Positions 22,650-64,000 of a stretch of DNA of 64,000 nt are shown in pieces. The notes below the pieces were generated by a model that saw nothing but the letters and a program-made list of their open reading frames with translations, made no database searches and was not told the DNA's origin. The stretch comes from Ipomoea triloba (taxonomy: Eukaryota > Streptophyta > Magnoliopsida > Solanales > Convolvulaceae): the NCBI RefSeq assembly GCF_003576645.1, contig NC_044925.1, positions 3,674,551 to 3,738,550 of the forward strand, given 5' to 3'. Position 1 is the stretch's first letter; every line of letters starts with the position of its first letter. The position numbers and the translations under genes are program-made.

Positions 22650-22979
22650 CGGGAGAATGACTTGTATCAGATTGTTGGGAAAGGAATCTTGCATGATTTT
22701 GTTGTGCCACTTTAATTTGTAGTTTTGTACCGCGTGACTTTCGTCGCTTTATATATATAAGCACGTGGGATTAAATTGAGGTTCAAATTAATAATGATTT
22801 AGGGCATTGCAAGCCTCGCAAAATAATAGCTATATATATATAGCCGCGTAGTTAGAATTAGTATACCAAATCTGTAAGCCTATCCATTATTATATATATT
22901 GGAGATAACAAGGTCTTTTGGCACTGCAACAGAATAAGTACTAAGTAGTTTCCGTTAAACTTGAGTTGGGCATCATATC
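22650..22979 (+). promoter_or_regulatory. Promoter and leader of dioxygenase B
   Basis: Shares a 330-bp block with the relic promoter at 20.3-21.8 kb: TTGTATCAGATTGTTGGGAA, CACGTGGGATTAAATT, CCGCGTAGTTAGAATTAG and TTAAACTTGAGTTGGGCATC. CACGTG at 22763-22768 is a G-box core. TATA-like runs lie at 22749-22759 and 22832-22842. Because these words survive in both copies, they are candidates for functional sites. Confidence 0.55.
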
Positions 22980-28840: not shown

Positions 28841-29170
28841 TCATGATCTAGCATCCCATAATGAAGTAGCAATATTGTTGCGAATCTCCTTCATCTCAGT
28901 AGATGTATGACTTAAACTTTCGTTGGTGGAGGTATTACTACTTGAATCTTGAAGTTCATCGGGCGGTATGTAATCTGGATGCTGCTCAAACACATTAAAC
29001 ATCATGTCATCTTGTGAATTCTTCCGAATATAATTATGTAAGGCAAATGTGGCCATAATAACATCAATTTGGGTCTCCACACTAAATTGTGGCATTTTAG
29101 CAAGTATCCTCCATCTCTTCTTCAATACTCCAAACGACCTCTCAATACAACTTCGAAGAGAAGAATGTGC
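28841..29170 (-). pseudogene. HARBI1-like transposase, C-terminal remnant
   Basis: The - strand frame reads SSLRSCIERSFGVLKKRWRI, LAKMPQFSVETQIDVIMATF and ALHNYIRKNSQDD, then an acidic/serine-rich tail to a stop at 28841. IERxFGVLKKRWRIL...ALHNYI is the end of the DDE_Tnp_4 catalytic domain of PIF/Harbinger transposases (it carries the last acidic catalytic E). The domain's upstream part, with the first two D residues, is missing: the frame runs into the tandem repeats at 29174. Not functional alone. Confidence 0.85.
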
Positions 29171-29173
29171 ACG

Positions 29174-29590
29174 ATTGATAAAACTTGGGTAGAATCCTAC
29201 AGATTACAAACACTGCAGAAACTTACTTTAATTATTCAAATTACATTATATCAAAAACACTGCAGATTTCATTAATATATATTATATCAAAAACAAACAC
29301 TGCAGATTACATTGATAAAACTTGGGTAGAATCCTACAGATTACAAACACTGCAGAAACTTATTTAATTCTTCAATTACATTATATAAAAAACACTGCAG
29401 ATTTCATTAATATATATTATATCAAAAACAACACGGTAGATTACATTGATAAAACTTGGGTAGAATCCTACAGATTACAAACACTGCAGAAACTTACTTT
29501 AATTCTTCAAATTACATTATATAAAAAACACTGCAGATTTCATTAATATATATTATATCAAAAACAAACTGCAGATTACATTAATATATA
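29174..29590. repeat. 137-bp tandem repeat, three copies
   Basis: Units begin ATTGATAAAACTTGGGTAGA at about 29174, 29311 and 29449. They contain CACTGCAGAAACTTA and ACACTGCAGATTTCATTAAT. The third unit is partial. The array sits exactly where the transposase coding sequence breaks off. Confidence 0.85.
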
Positions 29591-36000: not shown

Positions 36001-39000
36001 CATCTTGCACGATTCGTTCTGATTCTGCATCCAAAGCACTCGTGGCTTCATCGAGGAGGAGGATTTTCGGGTTCTTTAGAATCGCCCTCGCAATTGCAAT
36101 CCTTTGCTTTTGTCCACCTGATAGCTGAGTTCCATGTTCACCAACCATGGTATCAAGCCCCTACTAAAACATGACATCTTACATTAATTCCTTAAATTCG
36201 CGAGCACGATTGTTACATAAATGGTTAATGGCTAAACCTTAAACAAAAACAAACAAACAAAAAGGTTACCTTGGGGAGCTTATCAATAAATTTGGCTGCA
36301 TTTGCAAGCTCAGTAGCTGTTCTAATCTCCTCTTCAGTGGCATTCTCCTTACCATAGATTATATTCTCTCTTATTGAAGTTGTGAACAACATTGGCTCCT
36401 GGCTCACCAATCCCATTTGCTCTCTTAACCATTTGAGTTTTAATTTCTTTAAATTGATGTTGTCTAAGAGTACTTCCCCGGCATCAGGATCATAAAACCT
36501 TTCCAGTAAACTGATAACAGTAGACTTGCCACTTCCACTTTGACCCACCAGTGCTACAGTTTCGCCACTCGGGACACGAAGCGAAAATCCAGCAAAAATC
36601 TGCACATCTGGTCTTGCTGGATACCTAAAATACACATCTTTTAGTTCAATCTCGCCCTTGATGTCTTCCAACTCGACCCCGCTCGTGTCTGATGCATCGA
36701 TTGAGGGCTCCCGGTTTATTGTCTCGAACATTTTGTATGCCGCCGCCTGCCCTGATGCAAATGCATTCAGAGATGGAGATGTTTGGCCTAGTGACCTGAA
36801 AGGTTTCAAAATTGATGGTGAATCAGTGAATTCAAAGTGATTATATTGAAAATCGTATAATCCAATTTAGGCTTTTAGTTGAAATGGAACACATGCTTCA
36901 ATTGAAATGGCAGTTAAATTGTGCTACTTACATTCCTCCCATCATAATGGATATCATGACATTGATCACATCTCCCCCTCTGTATCCCTTCAGCAATATA
37001 AATTTGGCTCCACACCAAACAGCTAACCCATAACTGCTAAACAGAACAAGCAATATAGTACCAAGTCCTAAACCAGAAGCCAGCCCTAGCTGTATTGTAG
37101 ATTTATATGCAACATTCAGCTCCCCGTCGTACTTATCTATTGCTCTCTTTTCTCCATTGAATGAGGCAACCTAAAACAGACACAACCAAATCAAAGCCAA
37201 GAAATTTAGAAACTTGAAAACAAGTAAACAATAAGCAGAAAGTCTTTAGGTAACGAGGAAACCCGCAATCACTATTTGGTAGTGTGCACCTGGTAAATCC
37301 TATTTTGTCACCCTAGTCAGCAAAAATCACAAGGAGATAAATCAGTAGTAGGTGGTGTGCACTGGGTAAACTCAGTTTGTGACTCTAGCCCACAAGGACC
37401 ACAAGAGGTAAACCAGCTTAAACTAGGTTGTTCATAATTGATCGGCAAGTCAACAACATAACCAACTTGGCTGAGTTGCTCACAAAATGTTTTTAATTTT
37501 AGAGTGTTTTACCGTTCTGATCCCTCCTATAGTCTGTTCCACTACATTCCCAGCTTTTGCATAAGCAACTTGTCCGCGGCTTGACATTCCAGTCATGATC
37601 TTCGCCGTTGTTCCTGCGGCGATGGCGACGACAGGGATGCATAGACACAGAACCAATGCAAGAAGCCATCCTTTTATGAAGGCAATTATGAAGCCTCCAA
37701 TGAATGTTGACATGAACTGGATGAACTTCCCAACCTACAAATGATCTGTAATTAGGACACAAAAGGGGAAACCATTCTTTTTTCTCTTCTTCCTATTAAA
37801 AGTACCCCATTAAAAATAATAGAGAAACATACGAGTTTATAAGGAAAAAAATATACCACTGACCTGGTTCAAAACAATATTCAGATTGTGTGCTTTCAAT
37901 TAACATAACATAATACGTTAACCCGTATATAATATGTTAATTGCGGGTCCACAATGCAAAATGCAAGGTCAAACACACAAGTTTTGGGCCAAAGTCAACA
38001 ATGCATGATCCATAGTATAACAATTGGTGTATAAAACCATGTGTTAGACTGGCACAATCTTAGATTACTTAGTGGAGTCCAAACTTTCGTTTTAGGGAAT
38101 CTTAGATTACAACACTTCATGCCAAGGACCTTGTGGTCCAGTGACATCAAACCCTTCCCTCCTTTATACGGGAGGTGGTGGGTGCATTGTAATAGAGTTA
38201 GTAGTATTCAAAAAAAAAAGATTACAACACTTCGTTAAAAAGCTCACCTTTTCACCCATAGCTTCTTGGATGAGAATGGTGTCACCAGACATTCGACCAA
38301 TCACCTCTCCGGCTGTTGTTTCAGTGTCAAAAAAGGTAATGTCTTGTCTCAGAATTGCTTTCAGATACATCCCTCTAATTCTAGCAGCTTGCCTTTCTCC
38401 GGTAACCACCCAACAAGACATTTCTGTAATGTCACCATATCCATTATTTCAGGTTAGAAACCTTGAACCTCTAGTCAAAGAACATAGTGAAGATGAGAGG
38501 TGAGAGATAAATGCACTTACGTAAAAATGAGGCAATGCCCGAGCCAATAGCAAGGTACACAAAATTGAGGGATAGCTGAAAATCAGATCAAATGTTATGC
38601 TCACATTCATAAACAAACACATAACTTTTCTGCTCAAATCACTGCTAAAGATATTAAAATTTTACTACAAGAAGAATACACATTAAGAAAAATTACTGAA
38701 AATGAGCAAATCAGAAGTCAAAGACGTTAAGCCTAATATATATATATATATAAGCATAAATTTGCACTACGTCTTGCCCCTTAGACTTTTAGAGTTTTAG
38801 TTGAGATGTACCATATTTTTCTATAGTGCCTTTTCAGCAGTTTTTTGCATGAAAAAATAGAGATTATTATTTGCTTGATTCTCCAGCATGTTTATTAATT
38901 TGGAACAATATATTCTAGCACAGAAAACTTATTTAGATCAAATTAAAATTTACCAATTATTTAACTAATTTATAATGTGATAGTTGTCACAACATTTTAT

Positions 39001-40163
39001 GATCATTTAACTAATTATAAATTGCCAAAGACGCTGCATAATTGTGAGTTGTGACTCTCCCAATAGAAGTTCACAGGTTCCAACCACACTAAAGGCATTG
39101 ACATACAGATACTACGCTTTAACAAAGTTAGTAACCAACAAACTACCCAGGGAAATAAATCGTGTTGTAGATTTTCCTCATCATTCCAAAAATAAAATAA
39201 AAAAGAGGATAAACTGCATCTGTGCAGAATCGAACTAGTAACTTCTATGTATGATTTTATATTCGAAAATGATGTTTACCCATATTTCCCCTTATGATGT
39301 GAGTTTTATTTATTGGGTGTCATGAAATGACTGACCCACGTATACTTAATTAAATACTAAATAATCCCATTATTAGATGCTACCACATAGGAGGGGAAAT
39401 TGGAAAGAAGTTTTTAGGATGGATGTCTAGCTAGCATTACTCTTTTATATTAATAGATGCATTAAACACAAACATATCTCTTCTTCTTCTTTTTTTATAT
39501 ACTCCGGTATTTTTTAATTTACGAAGTATATAACTATAAATTATATAAAAATAAATAAATTATGATATTATAATATTTTGTTGTTTTAGATGTTTATCAA
39601 TTAATTTGAGTAAACAAAGTCTCCTAAACAAAATTGATGTTATGCATACGCCATCCAAATATCCAATATTCCAGACTCAACCCACAAATTTGACTAAATT
39701 TGACTTTTACTGGGGGACAAAAAAAAAGTTTGACTCATAGTACTGACCAAATTTTCTAACAACATAACTCTAAACGTGGCGGTATTTGATCGGAAAGGCT
39801 AAAAAACTTAAGATTTTCCGATGAAGGTTTCGCCGGAAATTCATTAACATAAAGATAAGATAAACAGAACAAAATTATTATTGCATGCACATATATAAAT
39901 ATAATGCGTACCTTAGAGATGACAGGGACAAGATGAGGTGAAGCCACAGTGCCAAAAGAATTGATAAGGTCGCCGAAGATAACCGTCATAAACGGCTGCG
40001 ACATCCCGACGGCGACGGCGGCCAGCGTTCCGACGACCATTAACGCAACATCCACCCTGTCTGCTAAGGAGAAAAGCTTGTAAAACCCCACTTTCGTCGT
40101 CTCATCATCTTTGCCTGAAACTAATTTCTTACTTTCTCCTCTCTCTTCACTATTATGATTCAT
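33057..40163 (-). CDS. ABCB9: ABC transporter B family protein, ABCB9-like full-size P-glycoprotein
   Basis: Twelve exons join in phase on the - strand: 40163-39912, 38575-38521, 38423-38248, 37734-37513, 37170-36932, 36795-36270, 36160-35887, 35796-35121, 34896-34668, 34582-34316, 34194-33931 and 33701-33057, giving 1,274 aa, the normal length. Layout is TMD1 (~35-310), NBD1, acidic/serine-rich linker (~600-690), TMD2 (~700-990), NBD2. NBD1 has Walker [10 protein letters not shown] (399-407), LSGGQ (503-507), Walker B ILLLDEA (523-529) and switch H559. NBD2 has GESGSGKST (1066-1074), LSGGQ (1171-1175), LLLDEA (1192-1197) and H1227. Both ATP sites look competent. The family sits in the plasma membrane and exports auxins or lipophilic compounds; ABCB9 itself has no firm substrate. 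The linker and NBD2 match ABCB9 better than ABCB11/21. A SINE sits in intron 3. Confidence 0.95.
38119..38218 (+). mobile_element. SINE family 1 in ABCB9 intron 3, with 15-bp target duplication
   Basis: It begins ATGCCAAGGACCTTGTGGTC, has box A (CCAGTGACATCAAACC) and ends in an A-run. AGATTACAACACTTC flanks it perfectly (38104-38118 and 38219-38233). Compared with the 19.6-kb copy, most of the segment from box B on is deleted. The clean duplication suggests a fairly recent insertion. Confidence 0.9.
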
Positions 40164-40260
40164 GCTGCGCTTGGTAAAATTTACGTAAACTCTCTCTCTC
40201 TCTATATATATATATCTCTATCTATATATCTGTTTTGTGGCTCCAAATTTATTTACGTGA
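40164..40260 (-). promoter_or_regulatory. ABCB9 leader and core promoter region
   Basis: Reading towards the gene, TATATATATATAG (about 40203-40216) is followed by a GAGAGAGAGAGAG tract (40191-40203) and the leader to ATG at 40163. GA/CT tracts near the start are common in plant promoters. The exact start site cannot be set from sequence. Confidence 0.5.
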
Positions 40261-40731: not shown

Positions 40732-42679
40732 TTTTCATCCCACATAATTTTGAACATGTTGAATCAACACAGTTACTTATATTTGAAGAAAATCCATCAG
40801 GTAATTTTAGAACTTTTAACCACTCATAAACTGCAATATGCTGATCTCGGCTCAAACTGTAGCTCGCCTTTGGCATAAGATATCTTCCATTATGTTCCAC
40901 CAATTCCAACTGTGGCCTATCACATACTTCCTTTATATCCAAACGAGTAGTAGACGTGTCTTTGTTTTTTTCTTATTCCTTTAACATCCATAACTGTGTA
41001 GAAGATGTTATCAAACACATTCTTCTCTATATGCATTACATCCAGGTTATGACGGAGGAGGTTATCTTTCCAATATGATAAATCCCAGAATATACTTCTT
41101 TTCTTCCAATTATGTGAACATCCAAACCCTTCAAGTCGACCGATTGGGCCATCGGTAATCTTTGGGAACATCAGCACATTAGCCAGCAATTCTTCCCCTG
41201 TCCAAATTCTCGGGGGTCTTGACTTTTCTACCCGTTGTTTGATGAAAGACTCACGATTTTTTCTAAAGGGATGATCCATTGGAAGAAATTGTTGATGACA
41301 ATCAAACCAATCAAACCAACATGTCTTACGCCCATTCTTTAAATAAAAAGATTTAGTATAATAATTGCAATAAGGACATGCTAGTTTTCCTGCAGTTTGC
41401 CATCCAGATAACATATCGTAAGCAGGAAATTCATTGATAGTCCACATCAACATAGCTCGCATCATAAAGTTTTGTTGTAACGAGACATCCTAGAGATGGA
41501 GAGCCCCTTGCCTCGCCCTTTTGCACCTCTCCTTCTTATAAGTTAAAACTCCCGTCTCCCATAACAGTTGAAGCTCATCGATTAAAGGTTGTAGATACAC
41601 ATCAATATTGGCCTTTGGGTTGTGCTCCCCAGGAATAATACAAGTTAAGAATGTATATGGGGGAGTCATGCACATTGAAGGTGGAAGATTATATGGAACA
41701 ACCATAACTGGCCAACAAGAATATGATTTAGCATTTAAACCAAATGGAGAAAAGCCATCAGCACACAAACCTAGTCTGACATTACGAGGATCTGCTCCAA
41801 AGTCAGGATATTGGCTATCAAAGTGTTTCCATGCCTCACCATCAGAAGGATGACACATAACACCGGTTGGCGACGATTTTCATAATGCCATCTCATGTGC
41901 TCAGCAGAACTGGGAGATGCATACAATCGCTGCAATCTAGGGATGAGAGGCAAGTAATGCATCATTTTCTTTGGCACTTCTTTTCCACGAGTACAATTAG
42001 GTGAACGTGGTTTAAAACGAGGCTCACCACAAAACTTACACTGTCTATCATTGATATCAGACTTATAGTATAACATGCAGCTATTAATACAACAATAAAT
42101 CTTCTCATGAGCAAGACCAAGCTTTGAGATCAATTTCTCTAAATCGTAATACCTAGACGGTACTCGAATATTCATCATCTTAAGTGCATATGACAACTCT
42201 GTTTCCTCAACACAAGAAGGGGATAAAGGTTGTCTAGCAGTGCTTAATAAATCATAAAAGTCTTTTGCACTTGTATGTGGATCTTCTTCTTGGTTATTCA
42301 ACACATTAAATGGAATAAATGATGAACCACCTACATCAAACACCATTGTTTCATACTGATTGTTTTCGTTACGTGTCTCTGAAAATTGTTCATTTACTGT
42401 GGGAATAGGCTCACCGTGACATGTCCATACCTAATAATACGGTTCAAATCCCTTCTTATACAAGTGAACACGAACTTCATCAGTAGATAAGTGTACTCTA
42501 TTCTTGCATTTACTACATTGACACCTAATTGTATTTGTCGACTCGTATACTGGAAGTGTGCATGCATAATTAACAAATTCCTCAACACCAGCTAAAAACT
42601 CATCAGTGTATCCTCTCTTTCCAGGCAACAATCGATTATACATCCATTTTCGATGTTCTAGTATACTATCCATATACAC
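40732..42679 (-). pseudogene. TNP2-like CACTA transposase, broken
   Basis: Collinear fragments on the - strand: 42679-42431 (RKWMYNRL...CSKCKN...HLYKKGFEPYY, the transposase-associated domain), 42346-41771 (SRYYDLEKLISKLGLAHEKI, CKFCGEPRF, PLIPRLQRLYAS, MRWHYENRRQP), 41858-41490 (GEAWKHFDSQYPDFGADPRN, VRLGLCADGFSPFG, PYTFLTCIIPGE), 41465-40920 (TMRA-like MMRAMLMWTINEFPAYDMLS, GKLACPYC, LLRHNLDVMHIEKNVFDNIF) and 40942-~40732. The frame changes between pieces 2 and 3 (about 41870). A stop and extra residues interrupt before piece 4. More breaks follow at about 40920. The C-terminal part is missing. Order and motifs identify the transposase_21 family. Confidence 0.9.
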
Positions 42680-53152: not shown

Positions 53153-53249
53153 TCAATTATATTTTCAGGTTTTCTTAATAATTATTAACCTATGGGGTAT
53201 TTATTGGCCATTTAATTTGTTGTCATGCTTAGTGGAATAGTAGATCGCC

Positions 53250-55358
53250 ATGCAAATATTTCCCGTTTTGATTAAAGAATTCAAATTTCGACCCTTATAC
53301 TTCGCCATTCCAACCCTCTCAAGATCGCTCACTTCTGATGCAAAGCACTCAAATGCAGTCCCTCGCACTTGCTATTCAATCCTCGTTAACTTTCTCTTGA
53401 ACCGAAAAATAGATGAAGCCGAAAGGCTTTTCGGCAAAATCCCGTCTCCCAGCATTTACCTGTGCACCAAAATGATTGGTGGGTATGCAGAAAACGGGAG
53501 ACTGAATGACGCACTGAATCTGTTCGATAGAATGCCGGTGAAGGACGTAGTCATGTGGAATTCCATTATCAAAGGGTGCGTAGAATGCGGGAATGTGGAG
53601 ATGGGCATGAAGCTGCTCGATGAAATGTCTGAGAGAAATGCTGTTTCGTACACGACTGTGATCAATGGGTTGTTGAGGTTTGGGAGGGTCGAGAAGGCGG
53701 AAGGTCTGTTTCGGGAGATGCCAGAGAAGGATGTAGCAGCCTGGAATGCAATGCTGTATGGGTATTTTGAGAACGACAGAGTGGAGGAGGCGCTGAGGTT
53801 GTTTGAGATGATGCCAAGAAGGAATGTGATTTCTTGGACATCCATGGTTAGCGGACTTGACCAGCATGGAATGAGTGAGGAGGCCTTGGTGACCTTTAGG
53901 AAGATGTTGGGGTTTGGAATTAAACCAAACTCAAATACTTTTGCATCTGCTATAACTGCTTGTGCTACCATGGAGGATCTTGTTTTAGGGAGTGAAATTC
54001 ATGGCACCTCCCTGAAGGCTGGTTTTGGTTTTGATGCATATGTTGCTGCTTCACTCATCACATTTTATGCCAATTGCATGAAAATTGATGATTCTTGGCG
54101 GGTTTTTAACGAAAAAATGCACATGAATGTAGTGGTATGGACATCTCTACTAACAGGCTATGGTTTGAATCATAAGCATGAGGATGCATTGACTCTTTTT
54201 GCAGATATGATCAGAATTGGGGTATGCCCTAACCAGTCTTCCTTCACCAGTGCCTTGAACTCGTCCTCTGAAGTCGAGTCTGTTGATCTAGGGAAAGAGA
54301 TCCATGGTGTGGCAGTCAAACTAGGTTTCAATACTGACGCCTATGTGGGTAACTCCCTAGTCGTGTTGTACTCGAAATGTGGAAATATGGATGATGGACT
54401 ACTTATATTCAAGGAAATAGCAGAAAAGAACACAGTCTCCTGGAACTCGGTTATAGTTGGATGTGCACAGCACGGGCATGGCAAATGGTCACTTGCATTA
54501 TTTGCCCAAATGGTAAGAACGGGTGTTGGCATTGATGATATCACCTTCACCGGGTTGCTTTCTGCCTGTAGCCATTCTGGTATGTTGCATAAAGGAAGAA
54601 TGCTATTTCATTATCTTTGTGAGAACATGTCGATGCAGATGAAGATTGAGCATTATGCGTGCATGGCGGATATCTTATGCCGGGGTGGGAAATTAGATGA
54701 AGCAGAGAATTTAGTGAAAACCATGATGCCTATGAAGCCAAATCTTTCAATTTGGCTAGCCCTGCTTAGTGGCTGCAGGAAACATTCTAACATAGAAATA
54801 GCCGAAAGAGCTGCAGAAAACATTTTTCGTCTCGATCCAAACTGCAGTGCAGCTTATGTTCTGTTGTCCAATATGTATGCTGCTACGAGTAGGTGGAATG
54901 ATGTTGCAAGGATTAGAGTGAAGATGAAGAGAAGAGGGAACATAAAACAACCGGGATGCAGTTGGGTAAATCTAAAGGGAACCCGGCATGAATTTGTTTC
55001 TGGTGACAGGTCCCATCCTCTGTGTGATCAGATATATGAAAAACTTGAGTGGTTGGGAAAGAAATTAAAGGAAATAGGTTATGTCTCCGATCAAAGATTT
55101 GCATTGCACGACGTCGAGGATGAACAGAAGGAAGCCATGTTGTCACATCATAGTGAGAGGCTTGCTATTTGCTTTGCACTAATTACTACTGTGGAGGGCA
55201 GCACCATTATAGTTATGAAGAATCTAAGAGTTTGTGGAGACTGCCACTCTGCCATCAAACTTATAAGCAAAATCGTTTGCCGTGAGATTGTATTGAGAGA
55301 TTCAACCCGTTTTCATCACTTTAGGGATGGGTTTTGCTCTTGCTCAGATTATTGGTAG
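53250..55358 (+). CDS. Pentatricopeptide repeat protein, PLS-DYW class (At5g46460-type)
   Basis: One uninterrupted frame of 702 aa; most plant PPR genes are intronless. Residues ~40-530 are PLS-type repeats (DVVMWNSIIKGCVECGNVEM, KDVAAWNAMLYGYFENDRVE, NVISWTSMVSGLDQHG, NTVSWNSVIVGCAQHGHGKW). E/E+ motifs follow (~535-600), then a complete DYW domain ending CSCSDYW. The deaminase motif H634-S-E636, the C662-x-x-C665H zinc ligands and the final C696/C698 are present, so it could catalyse C-to-U editing by itself. Overall it resembles Arabidopsis At5g46460 (PCMP-H49), a predicted mitochondrial protein. The N-terminus is basic and hydrophobic (MQIFPVLIKEFKFRPLYF), compatible with an organelle signal. 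The RNA target cannot be read without decoding each repeat's 5th/35th residues. Confidence 0.95.
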   Translation: MQIFPVLIKEFKFRPLYFAIPTLSRSLTSDAKHSNAVPRTCYSILVNFLLNRKIDEAERLFGKIPSPSIYLCTKMIGGYAENGRLNDALNLFDRMPVKDVVMWNSIIKGCVECGNVEMGMKLLDEMSERNAVSYTTVINGLLRFGRVEKAEGLFREMPEKDVAAWNAMLYGYFENDRVEEALRLFEMMPRRNVISWTSMVSGLDQHGMSEEALVTFRKMLGFGIKPNSNTFASAITACATMEDLVLGSEIHGTSLKAGFGFDAYVAASLITFYANCMKIDDSWRVFNEKMHMNVVVWTSLLTGYGLNHKHEDALTLFADMIRIGVCPNQSSFTSALNSSSEVESVDLGKEIHGVAVKLGFNTDAYVGNSLVVLYSKCGNMDDGLLIFKEIAEKNTVSWNSVIVGCAQHGHGKWSLALFAQMVRTGVGIDDITFTGLLSACSHSGMLHKGRMLFHYLCENMSMQMKIEHYACMADILCRGGKLDEAENLVKTMMPMKPNLSIWLALLSGCRKHSNIEIAERAAENIFRLDPNCSAAYVLLSNMYAATSRWNDVARIRVKMKRRGNIKQPGCSWVNLKGTRHEFVSGDRSHPLCDQIYEKLEWLGKKLKEIGYVSDQRFALHDVEDEQKEAMLSHHSERLAICFALITTVEGSTIIVMKNLRVCGDCHSAIKLISKIVCREIVLRDSTRFHHFRDGFCSCSDYW

Positions 55359-56599
55359 AATTGCAAAAGATGACCTTTTAGCAGAGCCAACTACATTTCT
55401 GCATCTACCATGCATCCTGTTTCCAGGCAAGATCATCTGATACTGTGGGTTTGAATAGCCTAATTGGGCGGAGGCCGGTGAAAAGCCAAGCCCAACACCG
55501 GTGAGGTTGGGGTGGCCGAGAGAACTGTTGGGTGGAGATCGGTGAAAGGTCAAGTCTAACACTATGTCTCTCGAAGCTTTTGACCTAATGGTAACTGGTA
55601 AATGTTTGATCCTAAGGACCTAAGCAACCTCAAGCATCAACAAAGCTCAAGATTCCATTGTACTGCCCACAATTGGATGGACATAGAAATCAACGAAAGC
55701 AAAGAAATATTTATTAGCAATTAGTATAGTAAATGGATGGAGTTTACTGTTTCCTTATTTGGCTTAGAACTTAGTTCTCTTCAAAATAGATATGGCAGAA
55801 ATTAAATGAGGGAGATGAATTTTGATTAAACATATATACACATGGTTATTAATAACATTTTATTGTTAATATATTACTCTAGTTTTTTTTGTTTTTTTTA
55901 AAAGGATAAAATATTGAGTATTACTTAAGATTTCGTAAATTATCAGCACTACTTGAGTATTAATTTATTGTTATACACATTACTTAGCCATTCCATTTTA
56001 TGCCTTGGTTTGCTAAATCATAAATGCAACTTTATTCAAAATATTTATAATTAAACTTTGTTGTGACATTTTCTGTTTCTTAAAAGTAAAAAATGACATA
56101 TGACAAGAAGGTACTGACGCTCCACCATTATAGATCTTCAAGATAATAGTGATAAAGCTCATGAATCTTGAGAATAGCATCTCTCAAGCTCCAAAGGTAT
56201 ATCTTCTACAAAGTAATATGTATACATAATACATTTGTGCTTTATGTACTCTGTTTGAATTCATGAGGTGATTCAAGCATAAGTCAATAACCGACTAGGC
56301 ACTATTCGCCAATATTTGGATGAAACTTTAGGTATATACGATTAAATCTTTGTGGATGTTTATGTATACTTGATAAATCTTGGCAGTATTCGCCAATATT
56401 TGGATGAAATTTTAGATATATACGATTAGATCTATGAGGATGTTTATGTATACTAGATAAATCTTCTATGATTGTATTCAATCTCTTGATTCAATAATAA
56501 AAAGGATTTAATTGTAACAACTTACTTTTAATATATTTGATAATGTAGGGTTTTTTTGGTTTTCTCTAATATTTCAATTAAGTTCCATATTTTACTTGG
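55359..56599. other. 3' flank of the PPR gene, no further gene seen
   Basis: 55445-55560 has a self-similar (G/A)GCCGGTGAAA(A)G and CCAACACCGGTGAGGTTGGG segment. A ~75-bp duplication (CGCCAATATTTGGATGAA(A/A)(C/T)TTTAG, ATATACGATTA, GGATGTTTATGTATACT) occurs at about 56307 and 56389. Nothing coding. Confidence 0.45.
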
Positions 56600-56835
56600 A
56601 GAGCCTTGCATAATATCCTGCCTAGTGCCTACTGCTACCAGCTTAAGGAAACAAAGATACGTTGGGTGCATTATGGCACTGTGGGTTGGATCATTTACAG
56701 CAGAAGTGAATGGCCCTTTGCAGTGTATACAAGACCCTTTAATGGCGGAGGCATGTGCTTTAGGGATCAAAGACTATGGTTTTTCATGCAAATAAGACTT
56801 GGGAAGCTATTATTAGCCATTGAAATGTTGTGAAA
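56600..56835 (+). mobile_element. LINE RNase H relic
   Basis: Across two frames, pieces such as IMALWVGSFTAEVNGPLQCI and QDPLMAEACALGIKD resemble the middle of a plant L1 RNase H-like domain (xAVNGPL...DPLMAEALAL). Frameshifted and short. The rest of the LINE is not visible here. Confidence 0.45.
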
Positions 56836-57120
56836 AACTTCACATCTTTAACTAATAAAATTTTGTTTAGAAAAAAATCACGCCTTTCAACTTATATGGA
56901 ACATTAGGTAAGCTTTTCATACAAATAGCATGACGCTACTATTAGCATGCAATTAAAATTTTTCACAAAATTTCATACTTTTCAACTTATGAAACTATGT
57001 GTGAATACAATTTTTTATTTTGAAAACAGGAAATAGTTTTTCAGTTTTCTAGAGCGTCGTTAAAATTTTCGTCGGGAAATAGAAGATTTTTTTGTATAAA
57101 AAAATGTTATTGATTTCATG

Positions 57121-57330
57121 TGTTTGTCCTTTGCTTTGCCTTGAATAGATGCCACTCAATATGCTCATCATGTTAATTATAAGAGCCTCCTTCAACAATA
57201 TGCACAAGAAGCACGACAATTTAGAACTACAGTCTCAATAGACGGAGAAGTTTGCACAACCGAAGGTTGCAGAGCATGATGTTGCCCCAGATATACAATG
57301 TAAAGTACGTACACTATGCTAAGTGTTACT
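57121..57330. repeat. Segmental repeat X, first copy
   Basis: TGTTTGTCCTTTGCTTTGCC, TTGAATAGATGCCACTCAAT, ATAAGAGCCTCCTTCAACAA and TATACAATGTAAAGTAC recur at 60866-61060 and from 63920 to the end of the window. It marks the start of a repeating multi-kilobase unit that contains the U1 genes. Confidence 0.75.
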
Positions 57331-57473
57331 AATGAAGATCGAGTATGCAATCTCAAATAAAATACTCCAATAAATAAAAGCTAGATCAGCCAATTTATGT
57401 TCAAGTGCAAACCCCCCGTAACATTTAGAACAAAGACATCACATCTAAACTAAAACTTGAACTGAAGTTTGGT

Positions 57474-57608
57474 GGGGGCTGCACGAACGCAATCTCTCTC
57501 TACCACAAATTACAAATTATGACATAGGCTCTCCCATTTAGGGAGGCCTTAGGCTAGCACCCCACCAATAGTGCAATGGAGGTCACTAGTCTAGGCCATG
57601 ACTCTTCC
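57474..57608 (-). pseudogene. Truncated U1 snRNA pseudogene
   Basis: Reads on the - strand from AGGAAGAGTCATGGCCTAGA through stem-loop 2 (CCATTGCACTATTGG), stem-loop 3 and a changed stem-loop 4 (GAGAGAGATTGCGTTCGTGC). The first ~36 nt of U1, including the ACUUACCUG splice-site-pairing end and half of stem-loop 1, are missing. The Sm region is duplicated (AATTTGTAATTTGTGG). No upstream sequence element is present. Non-functional. Confidence 0.85.
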
Positions 57609-57734
57609 TTTATTTTACTTTTACACTTGGAACCATGCATTCTCATAATTTTATGATTTCTATAATCTTGAAAAGAGTCCCACCACCACCACCTCTGCTT
57701 CAATTTTCATTTTGTTGAAGGCGTATCTATCACC

Positions 57735-57897
57735 TCTTATCTGTTATATGTAGTTTCTGTCCATATACTTGCTCAACCTACTGAAGCCCAACAAAGTCAA
57801 CATTGCCCCGACTGAGGCTCGAACCAATGACCTCCCACTTGGGAGAATCACTTCATGCCGTTTGATCACAAGGCCTTTGGCCTTGTTAAGAATACCA
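57735..57897 (-). mobile_element. SINE family 1, near full-length
   Basis: On the - strand it starts AACAAGGCCAAAGGCCTTGT and has box A region (GATCAAACGGCATGAAGTG) and box B (TTGGTTCGAGCCTCAGTCG), then TTGTTGGGCTTCAGTAGG and ACAGAAACTACATATAACAG. Confidence 0.7.
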
Positions 57898-58149
57898 ATA
57901 AGTTCTTTCCTCTTCTCCGCATTGAAATGCATTTCTTCTCTGGATTGGAATTAAACATTGAAATGCATTAGTTCACAACTAAATTAAAGCAACATATATG
58001 ATACTAGTGACTAATGGAACTAATCAGTTGGACAATATTTCAAAACTCCTATTTAATTAACTCGGCAAGTATTAGAATGTATTGAATAATATAATGGAAA
58101 ATAATTAGGTGTACTGGGTAACACATCAATCAATCACAGAGCTTAAACG

Positions 58150-58320
58150 TCCCATTTTGGTAAATAGTTGTTAGTTGATTGGGATAGAGAGTATAACTAG
58201 TTGTGAGATAGAGAGTATAACTAGTTGATAACATTATTTGATTGTAGAGAGCGTTTGGTAAATTAATTGTTTCGTATATATAAAATATAACATATACCCT
58301 CATGAGTCATGAATGCATGT
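58150..58320. mobile_element. MITE fragment (GTTTGGTAAAT family)
   Basis: TTTTGGTAAATAGTTGTTAG, TTGATTGGGATAGAGAG and GCGTTTGGTAAATTAATTG match the left half of the 23281-23605 element. A 29-bp stretch (GATAGAGAGTATAACTAGTTG) is duplicated. The right half is absent. Confidence 0.55.
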
Positions 58321-58490
58321 ATTCAATGTTTAAGTCAATACCATACTTAACTATAGGAGGCACCTTTAAATCCATACCATACTTAAATTAATTTTCATTC
58401 GCACCAAGCTGACCAAATTAATTATTAAGGGATAAAGTGCTGACAAAGTTAATTTTTTCATCCAAACTAAAACTTGAACTCAAGCTTAGT

Positions 58491-58649
58491 GAGGGCTGCG
58501 CGAACGCAATCCCCTCTGCCACAAATTATGACATAGGCTCTCCCATTTAGGGAGACCTTAGGCTAGCACCCCTCCAATAGTACAATGGAAGTCACTAGTC
58601 TAGGACATGGCTCTTCTTGATCAACCATTGACCCTGTCCAGGTAAGTAT
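58491..58649 (-). ncRNA. U1: U1 snRNA gene, copy 2 (variant)
   Basis: About 159 nt from 58649 down. The 5' end ATACTTACCTG pairs with 5' splice sites. Stem-loop 1 (ATGGTT-GATCAAGAAG-AGCCAT) binds U1-70K. Stem-loop 2 holds loop ATTGTAC, where plants and animals have ATTGCAC for U1A binding, so this copy has a C-to-U change in a key base. Stem-loop 3 (CTCCC-TAAAT-GGGAG), Sm site AATTTGTGG and stem-loop 4 with a TTCG loop complete it. The 3' flank CACTAAGCTTGAGTTCAA fits the plant snRNA 3' box CA(N3-10)AGTNNAA. A promoter element lies upstream. Nuclear, splicing of pre-mRNA; possibly a weakened variant. Confidence 0.9.
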
Positions 58650-58713
58650 GTTTCAAGTTGTTATAACTTATCTATTTGTAATACTTTTTTACCTTTCCGG
58701 TTTTATGACCTTT

Positions 58714-58724
58714 CAATGTGGGAC
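58714..58724 (-). promoter_or_regulatory. Upstream sequence element of U1 copy 2
   Basis: GTCCCACATTG on the - strand, 65-75 bp before the U1 5' end, differs from the plant snRNA USE (RTCCCACATCG) in one base. A TATA-like TTACAAATAGATA lies at -20 to -31, giving the USE-TATA spacing used for RNA polymerase II snRNA genes. Confidence 0.85.
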
Positions 58725-58849
58725 AACAATCTTAAATAATCTATATATGTAACTCCAACAACAACGTAACCATCAGTAGATGGACAAACAATACGTATGT
58801 AAGCAAAGGAATAAAAAGAAATTCAATTTGGATTTGGTTAGGCTTAGGC

Positions 58850-59880
58850 ACCTGCAAATAACTACCACAAATTATGACATCAACACTTCTTCCACTGCAC
58901 ACGCATGCATAAATGTATGTTTATACAGACTGCAGCGCTAAAACCAAATTGGAATTACATCTTCATATACATGCATTTGGCATCCCTATGTAAATCAAGC
59001 ACGCAACTTTGCGGAATTTACAATGCAAAAATGAAGGCCGGAAAGTGAATTAACTTTCCGGTTTTACCTTTTGGTTCTTTACTTTGCAGAAATAATTTTT
59101 CGCTTTTTACTTCTAGTACATCTTCTGAAGAATTAAGCTGAGACTTCTATAGCTACACATGTGAGCACAATAACGAATGGTAATAATGCAAAATGAAGGT
59201 TTTGGTGCCACGAATGTCATTAACACCGTCATATCCGAGGTTACGATTCAATTTCCAAATAAAGCAATTCTCGTTGATGCTTTCATATGTGATAACAGTA
59301 AATAAAAGTCTAGGACAAACAATTTCGCATGTGGGTTTGTTCTTGAAGAAGTCTTGTTTTTAATCATGGACAGATGTACGTAACAATTTCGATGGTAAGT
59401 AGTTCAAGGGTTTTAAAAAATTTTAATTTGCAGTGATAATGGGGAATAAATGAGTACGACTAAAAAAATGTTGTTTGTCATTAATTTGTAATAGTTACAA
59501 GTTCTAATCGTTTTCATTACTACAATTTATGATTATATTATTGTCTTATTCTATTTTATTTATTGTCTGTGCATCGGACAGTGCAAATACTAGTTTGCAC
59601 AACGAAAAGTTGCAGAACAGGATGCTGGTGTTACTAGTGAAGATCGAGTATATATGTAAGCCTATGTAATAAAGGGAGAGAAGTGTTTGGTTGCATTGTG
59701 GGGACGGATGAAAATTTTGATGCTTCCCTAGCTGATGCATCAGAACAAAAATTTATTCTGCAGTATAACATGCAAAACTAGGAATGAGATTTGCAGTATC
59801 GTCCATCAAAGCTAAAAGCTTAAGCCAATTGATTAGGAAGTGCAAACCACATAACTTTTACAGCAAAGACAACATCACAT
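58850..59880. other. Intergenic between U1 copies 2 and 3
   Basis: Starts with segment Z (GATTTGGTTAGGCTTAGGCA, CTACCACAAATTATGACATC) that also follows the U1 copies at 60.29 and 61.68 kb. Then unique AT-rich sequence. From 59590 (CGAAAAGTTGCAGAACAGGA, TGTTACTAGTGAAGATCGAG) it again matches the end of segment X. No gene seen. Confidence 0.5.
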
Positions 59881-59909
59881 CCAAATTAAATCGTGAACTG
59901 AAGTTTGGT

Positions 59910-60069
59910 GGGGGCTGCGCGAACGCAAGCCCCCTCTTCCACAAATTATGACATAGGCTCTCCCGTTTAGGGAGACCTTAAACTAGCACCCCTCCAATAG
60001 TGCAATGGAGGTCACTAGTCTAGGCCATGGCTCTTCTTGATCAGCCATTAACCCTGTCCAGGTAAGTAT
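59910..60069 (-). ncRNA. U1: U1 snRNA gene, copy 3
   Basis: 160 nt from 60069 down. It starts ATACTTACCTGGACAGGG and has an intact stem-loop 1 (ATGGCT / AGCCAT), the canonical ATTGCAC U1A loop, stem-loop 3 (CTCCC-TAAAC-GGGAG), Sm site AATTTGTGG and stem-loop 4 (GGGGGCTTGCG-TTCG-CGCAGCCCCC). The long-range helix region has changes (GTTAATGG, GCTAGTTTAAGG for GCTAGCCTAAGG). The 3' box is close to consensus (CACCAAACTTCAGTTCAC). Promoter element at 60133. Likely functional or nearly so. Confidence 0.92.
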
Positions 60070-60132
60070 GTTTTAATTGTTATAACTTATCTATTTGTAA
60101 TACTTTCCAACCTTTCCTGTTTTATGAACTTT

Positions 60133-60143
60133 CAATGTGGGAC
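60133..60143 (-). promoter_or_regulatory. Upstream sequence element of U1 copy 3
   Basis: GTCCCACATTG on the - strand, 64-74 bp before the U1 start, with the same TATA-like TTACAAATAGATA downstream as in the other copies. Confidence 0.85.
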
Positions 60144-60353
60144 AGCAACCTTAAATCATCTATATGACTATCTATGTAACTCCAACAAAAACGTAACCAT
60201 CAGTTTAAGCCCAAATCTCAAACGCATATATAGATGGATAGGCAATACGTATGTAAGCAAAGGAATAAAAAGATATTGAACTTGGATTTGGTTAGGCTTA
60301 GGCACCTGCAATTCTGCAAATAGCTACCAGTCTACCACAAATTATGACATCAA

Positions 60354-60398
60354 TAAATCCTCATCCGGTTCCTCTTCATCAGTATTCCTAAAGGCATT
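60354..60398 (-). pseudogene. Fragment of the lysine-rich gene's exon 2
   Basis: AAATCCTCATCCGGTTCCTC and TTCATCAGTATTCCTAAAGG match 62054-62100, the part of exon 2 coding for RNIDEEESDEDL. The rest of the gene body is deleted, and from about 60485 the sequence resumes with the gene's upstream flank (as at 63416). It shows that U1 and the protein gene were duplicated together. Confidence 0.75.
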
Positions 60399-60484
60399 GC
60401 ATAGGAATCCAAAACTGCTATTTCTCTAGAATTTGCTTCAGAGCTAGCCATGGATCAACTGCAGTTGACCCTGCGCCTCAAGGA

Positions 60485-60860
60485 TTGCCATAGTATATTT
60501 TCTTTTAGAAATGATATTCTTCAATTGTAGTTCTATTTGTCTGGTTCATTTGTGATCAAATGTCTTATTTCCACTCCTATTGTAAGTCTAGAATATTCAT
60601 GTTTTTGCACAAATATTGCATATTAGGATTTTTAGGTATTTGTTATGTGTTTTTTTAGCTACTGAATAACAAGAGATATTTGTGATGTTATATTGTTGTT
60701 GTAGGCTTTTTAGTTAAGATCTCAGTTTTTGGCTCAATAACCCTTGAATCAAGCTTATAAATAAATTAATAAATGAATTTGTTTAGTGCTCTTATTAAGA
60801 TTTGTGGTACTCATATGTGATGCATATATGGCAAAACTGAGTCTTTGAATAGATACCACT
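60485..60860. repeat. Segmental repeat W, first copy
   Basis: TTGCCATAGTATATTTTCTT, GTAGTTCTATTTGTCTGGTT, GTAAGTCTAGAATATTCATG, TATTAGGATTTTTAGGTATT and AATCAAGCTTATAAATAA match 63416-63760 in order. Not coding. Confidence 0.8.
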
Positions 60861-60865
60861 CATAT

Positions 60866-61060
60866 GTGTTTGTCCTTTGCTTTGCCTTGAATAGATACCA
60901 CTCAATATGCTCCTGTTAATTATAAGAGCCTAGAGAAGAACAGGATGCTGCTAGATATGCAATGTAAAGTACACTAAGCTAAGAATCGTTACTAATGAAG
61001 ATCTGGTATGCAGGCCCATGTTAAGTACACCAATAAATAAAAGGAGAGAAGTGGTTGGTC
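60866..61060. repeat. Segmental repeat X, second copy
   Basis: TGTTTGTCCTTTGCTTTGCC and TGAATAGATACCACTCAATA through AATGTAAAGTACACTAAGCT and ACCAATAAATAAAAG match 57121-57385. Confidence 0.8.
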
Positions 61061-61315
61061 AAGTTTGGAGTTTGGACTGCATGACAGAGTAATGTTTCTA
61101 GATTCACTCAATCATATACTACTAAGCTGATCAGAATCAGAACAAAAATTTATTATTCCACAGTAGAACATGCAAAACTGGGAATGAGATTTGCAGTATC
61201 ATCCACCAAAGCTAAAGGCTGAAGCCAATTTATGTGCAAATGCTAACCACTTTAACTTTTAGACCAAAGCCAACATCACCTCACATCCAAATTAAAACTT
61301 GAACTCAAACTTGGT

Positions 61316-61475
61316 GGGGGCTGCGCGAACGCAAGCCCCCTCTGCCACAAATTATGACATAGGCTCTCCCATTTAGGGAGACCTTAGGCTAGCACCCCTC
61401 CAATAGTGCAATGGAGGTCACTAGTCTAGGCCATGGCTCTTCTTGATCAGCCATTGACCCTGTCCAGGTAAGTAT
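61316..61475 (-). ncRNA. U1: U1 snRNA gene, copy 4 (best preserved)
   Basis: 160 nt from 61475 down: ATACTTACCTGGACAGGGTC, perfect stem-loop 1 (ATGGCT-GATCAAGAAG-AGCCAT), stem-loop 2 CCTCC-ATTGCACTATT-GGAGG with the U1A site, stem-loop 3 CTCCC-TAAAT-GGGAG, GCCTATGTCATAATTTGTGG with the Sm site, and stem-loop 4 with a TTCG loop and GGGGGC/GCCCCC stem. The 3' box CACCAAGTTTGAGTTCAA fits CA(N9)AGTNNAA exactly. Promoter element at 61540. It would form the U1 snRNP that recognises 5' splice sites. The best candidate for a functional gene in the cluster. Confidence 0.96.
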
Positions 61476-61539
61476 GTTTCAAGATGTTATAACTTATCTA
61501 TTTGTAATACTTTCCTACCTTTCCTGTTTTATGAACTTT

Positions 61540-61550
61540 CAATGTGGGAC
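61540..61550 (-). promoter_or_regulatory. Upstream sequence element of U1 copy 4
   Basis: GTCCCACATTG on the - strand, 65-75 bp before the U1 5' end. The TATA-like TTACAAATAGATA is at about -21 to -33. Confidence 0.88.
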
Positions 61551-61980
61551 AGCAACCTTAAATCATCTATACATGTAACTCCAACAAAAACGTAACCATC
61601 AGTTTTAGCCCAAATCTCAAACACATATAGATGGACAGACAATACGTATGTAAGCAAAGGAATAAAAAGAAATTGAACTTGGATTTGGTTAGGCTTAGGC
61701 ACCTGCAGTTCTGCAAATAGCTACCAGTCTACCACAAATTATGACATCAACACTTCTTCCACTACTTGAGTAGACTAATCCTCTTGACACTTTTTCCAAG
61801 AGTTACAAGATTGCCACTTCAGAAGCAAAATGGTAGGACACTTTGAACATAACTCTCAATGATAGAGCAGTAAGGTGCACAGATGGCAATTCTTGTTTAG
61901 AATTACAGAATATATTTTGTCAGGGCCAATATTAGTACGTACTTACACTTATACCTCCATTTTCGATTTCTTATTCAAAG

Positions 61981-63098
61981 CTAAAGTTGAAGATATCTGT
62001 TATTTTGGTGAAGACTCAGATATCTCATCTTCAATAACTGCTCTGCAATTCCAACTAAATCCTCGTCTGATTCCTCTTCATCAATATTCCTGAAGGCACC
62101 CACCTTTTCTCCAGTGCCACTTCCTTTTGCATCAGAACCAGACTTAATCAGTAGAGTAGTCCTCTCTTTCACTTTGGCATTAACATCATCACCTTCCTTG
62201 GCTTTTGCCTTACCATTTTTACTCACAGGAAGCAACCCAGCCATATCGCTCAGTTTATCAACAAACTCTTCAAATAAGTTGGCAAAAGTTTTAGGGTCAG
62301 CGGACTCGGAAGCCACCATTGATTCGTCAACAAAGGTATCCACTGCTACTGTCTCATCAGATGAATATGCAGATTGCAAATTCTCATCAGATGAATATGT
62401 AGATTGCAAATTAAAGATATACTGATCACCAGTAATGGCCTCAGCATACCCTGTATATGCTTCTGCAATTAAAACAACAACGATTCAAGTGACTAATGGA
62501 ATTAATTAAACTGAAATTAATCTATCATTTCAACAAGATTTTGGAAAGTACTGAACAATGGAAGATCATTAGGTGTGGATCAAACACACGCATTCACAAC
62601 TCGAACTTGAATCCATCGCAGCCTACAAAAGATGAATTCCCACAACAACACATACCTAGCTACCAACTGTATTATACGCTAAACCTAAACACCGATGATA
62701 TAAAATTAAATTGCATCCGCTCACAGAAACTTTTAAGAAATTGAATACATTCGGATCGGAATATATAAGCATAAACACAGTCGAATTATACACAGCGGCG
62801 AACTAATAAATTGCATGTGTATTCAATTCGCGGATTCAATCGTATACACTACAGATAACTAGAAAAGGATCGGAGATATACCTATGGTTGCCGCACATTC
62901 GCGAAGTGCTTGTTTCTGTCGTTCGGGATCTCCGTACATTTCAACCAGATAGTCCATCATAGTTTGAATCTCATCAAGTCGATGCCGACGATCTTCATCA
63001 TCTCCGTATCTGGCGAAGCTTCTCTCGTTCGGGAATTCCTTCTTGTTCTTCTTGCTCTTCTTGTTCTTCTTGCTCTTCTTGCTCTTCAAGCCCGCCAT
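61981..63098 (-). CDS. Unrecognised lysine-rich protein, two exons
   Basis: Exon 1 63098-62882 and exon 2 62462-61981 join at a GT-AG intron in phase (…ATIG donor, EAYTGYAEA) to give 232 aa. The N-terminus is a lysine/serine repeat (SKKSKKNKKSKKNKK), a likely nuclear or nucleolar signal. Residues ~33-85 (RLDEIQTMMDYLVEMYGDPE, RQKQALRECAATIG) look helical and charged. Next comes an imperfect repeat NLQSTYSSDE/NLQSAYSSDE, an amphipathic stretch (KTFANLFEEFVDKLSDMAGL), an acidic EEESDEDL segment and a stop after RYLQL. I do not recognise the family, and further splicing at the 3' end cannot be excluded. It lies about 500 bp upstream of U1 copy 4 on the same strand and has a truncated duplicate at 60354. 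Confidence 0.65.
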
Positions 63099-63199
63099 TT
63101 GTCACCTCTGAGAAACAGCAAAAAAGTTATAATAGAAGGAACACTTTAAACAAGAACCAATGAAATTCAAAGCTACAAGTTATTGAATTGGCGAGATGA

Positions 63200-63415
63200 A
63201 ATCACATACAGTGAATTTTGAAGTGTATTGCTTGAAGAAGAACTGCAGTTTGTGAGGAAGAGCATAGACGTCCTTTCTTAAAGAGGTTTTATTAGGGAAA
63301 AAGAAATGGCGCTAAAAAGCGGCTAAATAAATATCGGCCGCCATAACCGCATAAATAACTAAGCAAAAGTCAATTGCAGCGTGGAGCGCTAATTTGACCT
63401 TGCGTTGACTATAGA
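63200..63415 (-). promoter_or_regulatory. Probable promoter region of the lysine-rich gene
   Basis: Upstream (- strand sense) of the start codon at 63098. A possible intron or leader separates them. GCGGCCGATATTTATTTAGC at about 63325-63345 contains a TATTTA box, and the GC-richer words GCGCCATTTC and CCGCTTTTTA lie nearby. No sharper motif. Confidence 0.3.
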
Positions 63416-64000
63416 AATATTGCCATAGTGTATTTTCTTTAAGAAATGAGATTATTGTTTTTCAAAAAAAAAGAAAAAAAAAAAGAAATGAGATTCTTTG
63501 ATTGTAGTTTTATTTGTCTAGTTCATTTGTGATAAAATTCCTGATTTTAATTCTTATGGTAAGTCTAGAATATTTATGTTTTTGCACCAGCATTGCAGAT
63601 TAGGATTTTTAGGTATTTATTGTGTTTTTTTTAGTTAGTGAATAATAACATACAAGAGATAATTGTGTTGTTATATTGTTGTTTTAGGCTTTTTATTTTT
63701 GGCCAGCTTCCTGTCCATAACCATTGAATCAAGCTTATAAATAAGTAAATAAATTTTTTAGCTCAATTTCTAATTCTTCAATTATGGTATTGGTTCTCAA
63801 GAATATCACACTTTAGCATTATTATTATATTAATTTATGAGTTGATGCATATATGGAAAAAACTGAATCTTAGTTGTACCTTTAAAAAAAAAATAATGTT
63901 CTTGATTTCATGTGTTTTTCCTTTACTTTGCCTTGAATAGATGTTACTCAATATGCTGATGTTAGTTATAATTAAAAGCCTCCTTCAACAATATGCACAA
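63416..64000. repeat. Segmental repeats W and X, last copy (runs off the window)
   Basis: 63416-63760 matches repeat W (60485-60860). 63915-64000 matches repeat X (57121-57210), ending AGCCTCCTTCAACAATATGC. In the earlier copies X is followed by a U1 gene, so another unit probably continues beyond the end. Confidence 0.8.

Follow-up and report, generated by a model that had tools for sequence, protein, structure and literature searches.

U1 genes of the window

The window, a 64-kb stretch of the Ipomoea triloba genome (C10:3674551-3738550 in the genome analysed), holds a tandem array of U1 small nuclear RNA (snRNA) genes. Scanning its whole length with all families of Rfam release 15 at gathering scores gave three matches to the U1 model RF00003, all on the minus strand and covering the whole model, with E-values (against all Rfam families) of 5.4e-36 to 2.9e-32; they begin exactly at the 5' ends proposed in the first-pass annotation, 58649, 60069 and 61475. 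A permissive scan of 54000-64000 yielded one extra U1 match, at 57616-57473, with a score under the RF00003 cut-off of 69.5 bits. From upstream to downstream, the four copies are:

61314..61475, minus strand: U1 snRNA gene copy 1, 162 nt, intact; RF00003 141.7 bits; 44 standard pairs among the 45 of the U1 fold
59908..60069, minus strand: U1 snRNA gene copy 2, 162 nt, intact; 137.6 bits; 45 of 45 pairs standard
58489..58649, minus strand: U1 snRNA gene copy 3, 161 nt, divergent or decaying; 128.8 bits; 41 of 45 pairs standard
57474..57607, minus strand: copy 4, a 5'-truncated U1 pseudogene; 45.8 bits; Sm site split by an insertion

Pairs were counted with purpose-written scripts on a reference cloverleaf of 45 scored pairs; because this reference is copy 2's own centroid fold, copy 2 is favoured by construction in these counts. 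No RNA gene of the window other than the three U1 genes reached an Rfam gathering score, and ARAGORN found no tRNA genes in it. Such U1 genes would escape protein-based annotation; the Rfam scan picks up the three full copies directly.

The loops of U1 bind U1-70K and U1A. Copies 1-3 share the 5' end ATACTTACCTG, the loop GATCAAGAAG, the Sm site ATAATTTGTGG and a TTCG-capped stem-loop (SL) 4; the 5'-terminal ACUUACCUG, which pairs with 5' splice sites, is unchanged in these three and absent from copy 4. All four copies had been credited with every U1 landmark, which is true of copies 1 and 2 (complete set of SL1 U1-70K loop, SL2 U1A loop, Sm site and SL4); copy 3 does not have the ATTGCAC string of the U1A loop, and copy 4 has no 5' end and falls well short of the model cut-off.

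Promoters and 3' boxes

For the motif scan we used the plant upstream sequence element (USE) consensus RTCCCACATCG. The window has only three sites with at most one mismatch to it, those of copies 1-3, and four further sites with two mismatches. Each full copy also has a TATA-like box downstream of its USE and a 3' box, or a sequence close to one, after the RNA:

61540..61550, minus strand: USE of copy 1 (GTCCCACATTG), one mismatch to RTCCCACATCG
60133..60143, minus strand: USE of copy 2 (GTCCCACATTG), one mismatch
58714..58724, minus strand: USE of copy 3 (GTCCCACATTG), one mismatch
61499..61506, minus strand: TATA-like box TACAAATA of copy 1, 33 nt after the USE
60092..60099, minus strand: TATA-like box TACAAATA of copy 2, 33 nt after the USE
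58673..58680, minus strand: TATA-like box TACAAATA of copy 3, 33 nt after the USE
61299..61316, minus strand: 3' box of copy 1, strict consensus
59893..59910, minus strand: sequence of copy 2 resembling a 3' box but differing from the consensus by one base, read by eye
58474..58491, minus strand: 3' box of copy 3, strict consensus

The USEs start at -75, -74 and -75 in copies 1, 2 and 3, agreeing with the -65 to -75 given before, and the gap to the TATA-like box is 33 nt (44 nt start to start) in all three. In plant snRNA genes transcribed by RNA polymerase II (Pol II), USE and TATA box are described as four helical turns apart, with one turn fewer for U6 and U3 (PMC9845283, a passage in a review). 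Judged by its spacing, the layout of copies 1-3 is of the plant Pol II snRNA type. The original description as U1 genes with plant Pol II-type promoters thus extends to three copies, among them a suspect copy 3, and not to the truncated copy 4. The plant snRNA 3' box consensus, CAN3-10AGTNNAA in excerpts of two papers (PMC5079582, PMC545797), fits copies 1, 3 and 4 strictly, i.e. two of the three full copies; a 3' box had been claimed for all three, and that of copy 2 ends in AGTTCAC instead.

Intact and damaged copies

Copies 1 and 2 keep both the fold and the motifs that were sought, with minimum free energy z-scores of -4.01 and -4.03 against shuffles. The z-score of copy 3 is -2.52; its U1A loop carries a C to U change at position 68 (ATTGTAC, i.e. 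AUUGUAC, against ATTGCAC, i.e. AUUGCAC, in the other copies), where 41 of the 42 genomic U1 loci compared (below) have C and copy 3 alone has U. A one-base deletion breaks the stem of its SL4, and 4 of its 45 stem pairs are non-standard. We suspect that copy 3 is a divergent or dying copy. Copy 4 is missing ATACTTACCTG and the 5' half of SL1, since its likeness to the others begins only at 57607, at about U1 position 34; the Sm site is interrupted by a 7-nt insertion, SL4 is altered, and the USE scan of the window found no USE-like site for it. Judged by these lesions, copy 4 is a truncated pseudogene, a dead fragment. Bases specific to copy 2 (U1 positions 20, 88, 89, 105 and 132) and to copy 3 (26, 45, 60, 68, 140, 141 and 159) would let reads be assigned to individual copies.

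Local duplication

The array consists of repeats longer than the U1 genes. Segment 61125-61750 (copy 1) recurs as 59730-60353 (copy 2) at 90.4% identity, and the copy 3 region (58459-58896) and copy 4 region (57388-57607) match copy 1 at 86.5% and 83.3%. With gap columns left out, copies 1 and 2 have an identity of 96.9% in the U1 body and 96.1% in the promoter, against 74.0% in the first 50 nt of the 3' flank and 86.8% in the next 140 nt. Outlying blocks are repeated as well (63484-63754 with 60507-60774, and 63890-64000 with 57098-57207). Upstream of copy 1 lies a protein gene resembling LOC109166660, for which we propose two exons, with conceptual limits:

62883..63098, minus strand: exon 1 of the upstream protein gene (LOC109166660-like), with Ipomoea homologues
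61984..62463, minus strand: exon 2 of this gene, part of which recurs at 60351-60425 ahead of copy 2

All 16 protein matches to this gene bear Ipomoea names. One piece of it, 62056-62098, recurs at 60354-60396, directly before copy 2. Given these repeats of outlying blocks and of protein-gene sequence, the repeated unit seems to have been a block with the protein gene and a U1 gene, later cut by deletions; the array thus seems to stem from local duplication that included the protein gene, with an order of events that we infer. The protein gene had no match at E 1e-3 in the U1 loci fetched, a few kb around each, so the idea that it belongs to every cluster of the U1 subfamily described below is unsupported.

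The U1 family of the genome

A search of the genome (462 Mb, 17 contigs) with RF00003 showed that at least 42 U1 loci pass the cut-off and that 28 of these lie in clusters. The list is a lower bound, since direct scanning of one C12 segment (L023) found two cut-off-passing matches (104.9 and 74.8 bits) that it does not contain; the comparison and tree cover the 42 listed loci without these two. A USE with at most two mismatches lies at -80 to -70 in 33 loci and is missing from nine, some of which are directly followed by A-rich tracts.

In the tree, which is midpoint rooted and whose bootstrap had not settled, 12 loci of C10 and C11 (C10 3.73 and 4.36-4.38 Mb; C11 12.16 and 12.22 Mb) group with support 100/98. 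The three window copies belong to this subfamily and form no group of their own within the tree. Mean identity is 91.4% within the subfamily and 79.3% to the 21 other USE-bearing loci, with five alignment positions at which the two sets share no base. Four of these five are both sides of two stem pairs: pair 26-39 is G-C in one set and C-G, U-G or U-A in the other, and pair 98-108 is A-U, G-U or G-C as against C-G or U-G. A standard pair is kept at 26-39 in 11 of the 12 subfamily members and at 98-108 in all 12, and at both in all 21 others; by this pattern of pairing the subfamily changes are compensatory. Standard pairs fill 97.0% of the pair cells in the 33 loci with a USE, compared with a mean of 91.1% and a maximum of 92.2% in 500 shuffles (which ignore relatedness) and with 38.6 to 47.1% when pairing partners are slid. 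Double changes among standard pairs occur in 23 of the 45 pairs of these loci, a count without a control of its own.

Eleven of the 42 loci have the strict 3' box: 10 of the 12 subfamily members and one of the 30 others. Outside the subfamily (e.g. L009, L011, L014), 20 of the 21 USE-bearing genes have no strict CAN3-10AGTNNAA within 45 nt, and in 10 of the 21 the RNA is directly followed by CCAATTT, read by eye; the consensus may understate the variety of plant 3' boxes. A separate observation concerns U1 position 11, which would lie opposite exon position -3 of the 5' splice site: its base is G in 31 of the 33 USE-bearing loci, and A and U in L019:7809-7970 and L023:1463-1624.

Interpretation of the array

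We are confident that this is a degenerate tandem U1 array of Ipomoea, in which copies 1 and 2 most likely work, copy 3 is divergent or decaying, copy 4 is dead, and a local block has been duplicated repeatedly. Sequence, fold, promoter layout, subfamily membership and repeat anatomy can be read directly from the DNA; for transcription, the polymerase, 3' processing, snRNP assembly and function of copies 1 and 2 we reason by analogy with known plant snRNA biology. On that basis the two are most likely ordinary Pol II U1 genes feeding the pool of U1 small nuclear ribonucleoprotein (snRNP). Pol II would start at the A of ATACTTACCTG under the USE and TATA promoter, the 3' box would direct 3' cleavage of the transcript, and the RNA would join the U1 snRNP and pair with 5' splice sites.

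Several observations weigh against this reading. Each USE has a mismatch, the TATA box TACAAATA is imperfect, and the 3' box of copy 2 departs from the strict consensus at one base. Without gap columns (9, 41 and 50 of them), identity between copies in the block upstream of the promoter is 96.3, 95.9 and 93.4%, close to that of the U1 body (96.9, 96.3 and 93.2%); recent duplication or conversion therefore explains much of the likeness between the window copies. Finally, the nine USE-less loci still keep 94.8% of their pairs standard, so an intact fold alone is no proof of function, and pair conservation separates live from dead U1 copies weakly.

Copy 3, or the subfamily as a whole, might instead be a U1 variant with a specialised role, through altered U1A binding or expression. 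The grouping of 12 of the 42 loci (support 100/98), their five positions unshared with the 21 other USE-bearing loci, and the U that copy 3 alone has at loop position 68 would all fit such a variant. We nevertheless consider it unlikely: four of the five positions make up two stem pairs whose pairing is preserved, for which drift under structural constraint suffices, the splice-site-pairing end is the same in the three window copies, and copy 3 has a stem-breaking deletion besides its loop change.

Marginally less probable still is that every copy is an untranscribed U1 pseudogene, spread through retroposition or through duplication at the DNA level. In favour of this, copy 4 is clearly defective and copy 3 damaged, and the genome does contain USE-less U1 loci (9 of 42), some with A-rich tracts directly after them. 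Retroposed copies would, however, lack both USE and TATA-like box, so the fixed spacing of the two elements in copies 1-3 counts against retroposition; moreover, the copies differ less in U1 body and promoter than in the 3' flank, and copies 1 and 2 retain fold and motifs.

The degenerate array with two probably working genes is then ordinary biology, real but unexceptional since the genome holds several such U1 clusters; clustered snRNA genes with the same signals are already described in the Arabidopsis survey, as excerpted (PMC545797). Its U1 genes now have a place in a genome-wide family that includes subfamilies, clusters and broken copies, and in which one can follow how an essential RNA gene is born, dies and drifts while keeping its structure.

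Probable remnants of an older U1 upstream of the full copies

A second Sm string occurs at -266, -275 and -225 relative to copies 1, 2 and 3. It belongs to a stump, most likely derived from the 3' end of an older U1 gene:

61673..61747, minus strand: remnant upstream of copy 1, a decayed 3' end of an older U1 that runs from Sm site to 3' box; it matches the U1 Sm region at 19 of 20 nt
60276..60350, minus strand: the same remnant upstream of copy 2
58822..58880, minus strand: the same remnant upstream of copy 3, its middle part deleted and its 3' box no longer matching

The Sm string of the remnants of copies 1 and 2 is followed by a 3' box-like AAGTTCAA. The copy 1 remnant has an Sm score of 35, against at most 27 both in 2000 dinucleotide shuffles and in minus-strand stretches below 57000 (n = 2587). 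A genome search with the remnant block gave seven matches: the window's own three, three that are limited to the promoter-side part and adjoin subfamily U1 genes of C10 and C11, and a single match to the whole block, with 79% identity, at C10:5.73 Mb (L036). In this last paralogue the stretch after the Sm site aligns with SL4 and 3' box at a score of 40.5, compared with at most 34.5 in 2000 single-base shuffles; with this SL4-like stretch the paralogue supports the reading of the stump as the end of an older U1. Chance as the source of the Sm-like stretch is ruled out by the shuffles and by the paralogue. The C10:5.73 Mb locus is like the window in that this upstream block, including the Sm remnant and its 3' box, precedes a U1; unlike in the window, that U1 is degraded (52.4 bits, under the cut-off) and its TATA region altered, with the USE remaining. 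At -225 to -275, the exact 10-base Sm string was not found in the other 39 listed U1 loci. Elsewhere within 600 nt it occurs in three of the 39: two on C2, near -522, the position of a neighbouring listed U1, and one on C12, at -344, the position of a further U1 match from direct scanning.

The duplicated unit would accordingly comprise the protein gene, the 3' stump of the older U1 and a U1 gene, multiplied locally and repeatedly, with deletions afterwards. An independent small RNA gene in the remnant is not favoured, because the copy 1 remnant folds like shuffles (z 0.08) and has no USE of its own, the only USE sites within two mismatches in the cluster being those of the three U1 genes.

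We also weighed whether the stump, with its Sm site and 3' box, might still work as a signal for snRNA 3' cleavage, independent of the promoter, so that read-through from the protein gene upstream on the same strand is cut and the U1 promoter insulated, and hold this to be the least probable of the readings considered. It would draw on an identical stretch of 45 nt across the 3' box of the remnant in copy 1 and C10:5.73 Mb, two sequences 69.1% identical over the 307 columns compared (the longest run in column shuffles averages 13.4, and none of 5000 reaches 45), and on the independence of plant snRNA 3' processing from the snRNA promoter stated in an excerpt of PMC5079582; against it, the copy 3 remnant has neither a 3' box match nor its middle part, the copy 1 remnant is no more foldable than its shuffles, and the 45-nt stretch could also stem from gene conversion or clustered indels.

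Comparison with other U1 clusters

The Arabidopsis U1 family, in the sections of the survey at hand (PMC545797), has 14 copies, 10 of them judged likely active; clustered snRNA genes are described there. Like the window genes, the family is multi-copy and partly clustered, carries USE, TATA box and 3' box, and includes likely pseudogenes. Seven Arabidopsis clusters, according to the same sections, pair U1 with a downstream U4, 180-300 nt between them, whereas U1 follows U1 in the window. A cluster of the U1-U4 type was rejected here: Rfam gave no U4 match at gathering score in the window, and the closest U1-U4 pair among the genome matches listed (lists that are lower bounds) is 326,820 bp apart, with a U4 match under its own cut-off. 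Separately, four U4 matches about 1.5 kb apart on one strand form a tandem U4 array at C4:1265079-1269895, no U1 being listed for the 3 Mb on either side.

The other U1 clusters of the genome are:

C2 13.31-13.32 Mb
C7 14.84-14.88 Mb
C10 4.36-4.38 Mb
C11 12.16 and 12.22 Mb
C12 24.55 Mb

They resemble the window in having several U1 genes close together, with a USE at -73 to -77 in 23 of the 25 listed loci; only those on C10 and C11 belong to the window's subfamily. Our literature search, which covered few subscription journals and no older plant U1 papers, found nothing on topic for Ipomoea U1 snRNA genes and, among the titles listed, PMC545797 as the sole survey of plant U1 genes. A pattern scan of viral contigs gave no match.

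Other features in and near the window

A tRNA-like repeat with A- and B-box-like motifs, probably a short interspersed nuclear element, lies between copies 3 and 4 (57735-57880, minus strand); partial relatives occur at five places in the window, close to 3490, 10231, 19687, 44517 and 53004. Among protein-coding features, 53244-55358 (plus strand) is an uninterrupted PPR protein reading frame that includes E, E+ and DYW domains, and the reading frames of 33057-40217 (minus strand) resemble one ABC transporter gene (ABC_tran domain, from a scan of 33057-33701 only). By reading-frame likeness, 15784-16894 and 22965-25174 (plus strand) are two similar tandem 2OG-Fe(II) dioxygenase-like genes, with domains scanned in 23834-24454 only. 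Transposase pieces are found at 41490-41879 (minus strand, tnp2 type) and 28841-29203 (minus strand, DDE_Tnp_4 type). About 1 kb past the right end of the window, a tRNA model matches at 49.6 bits (L034:1548-1629, plus strand).

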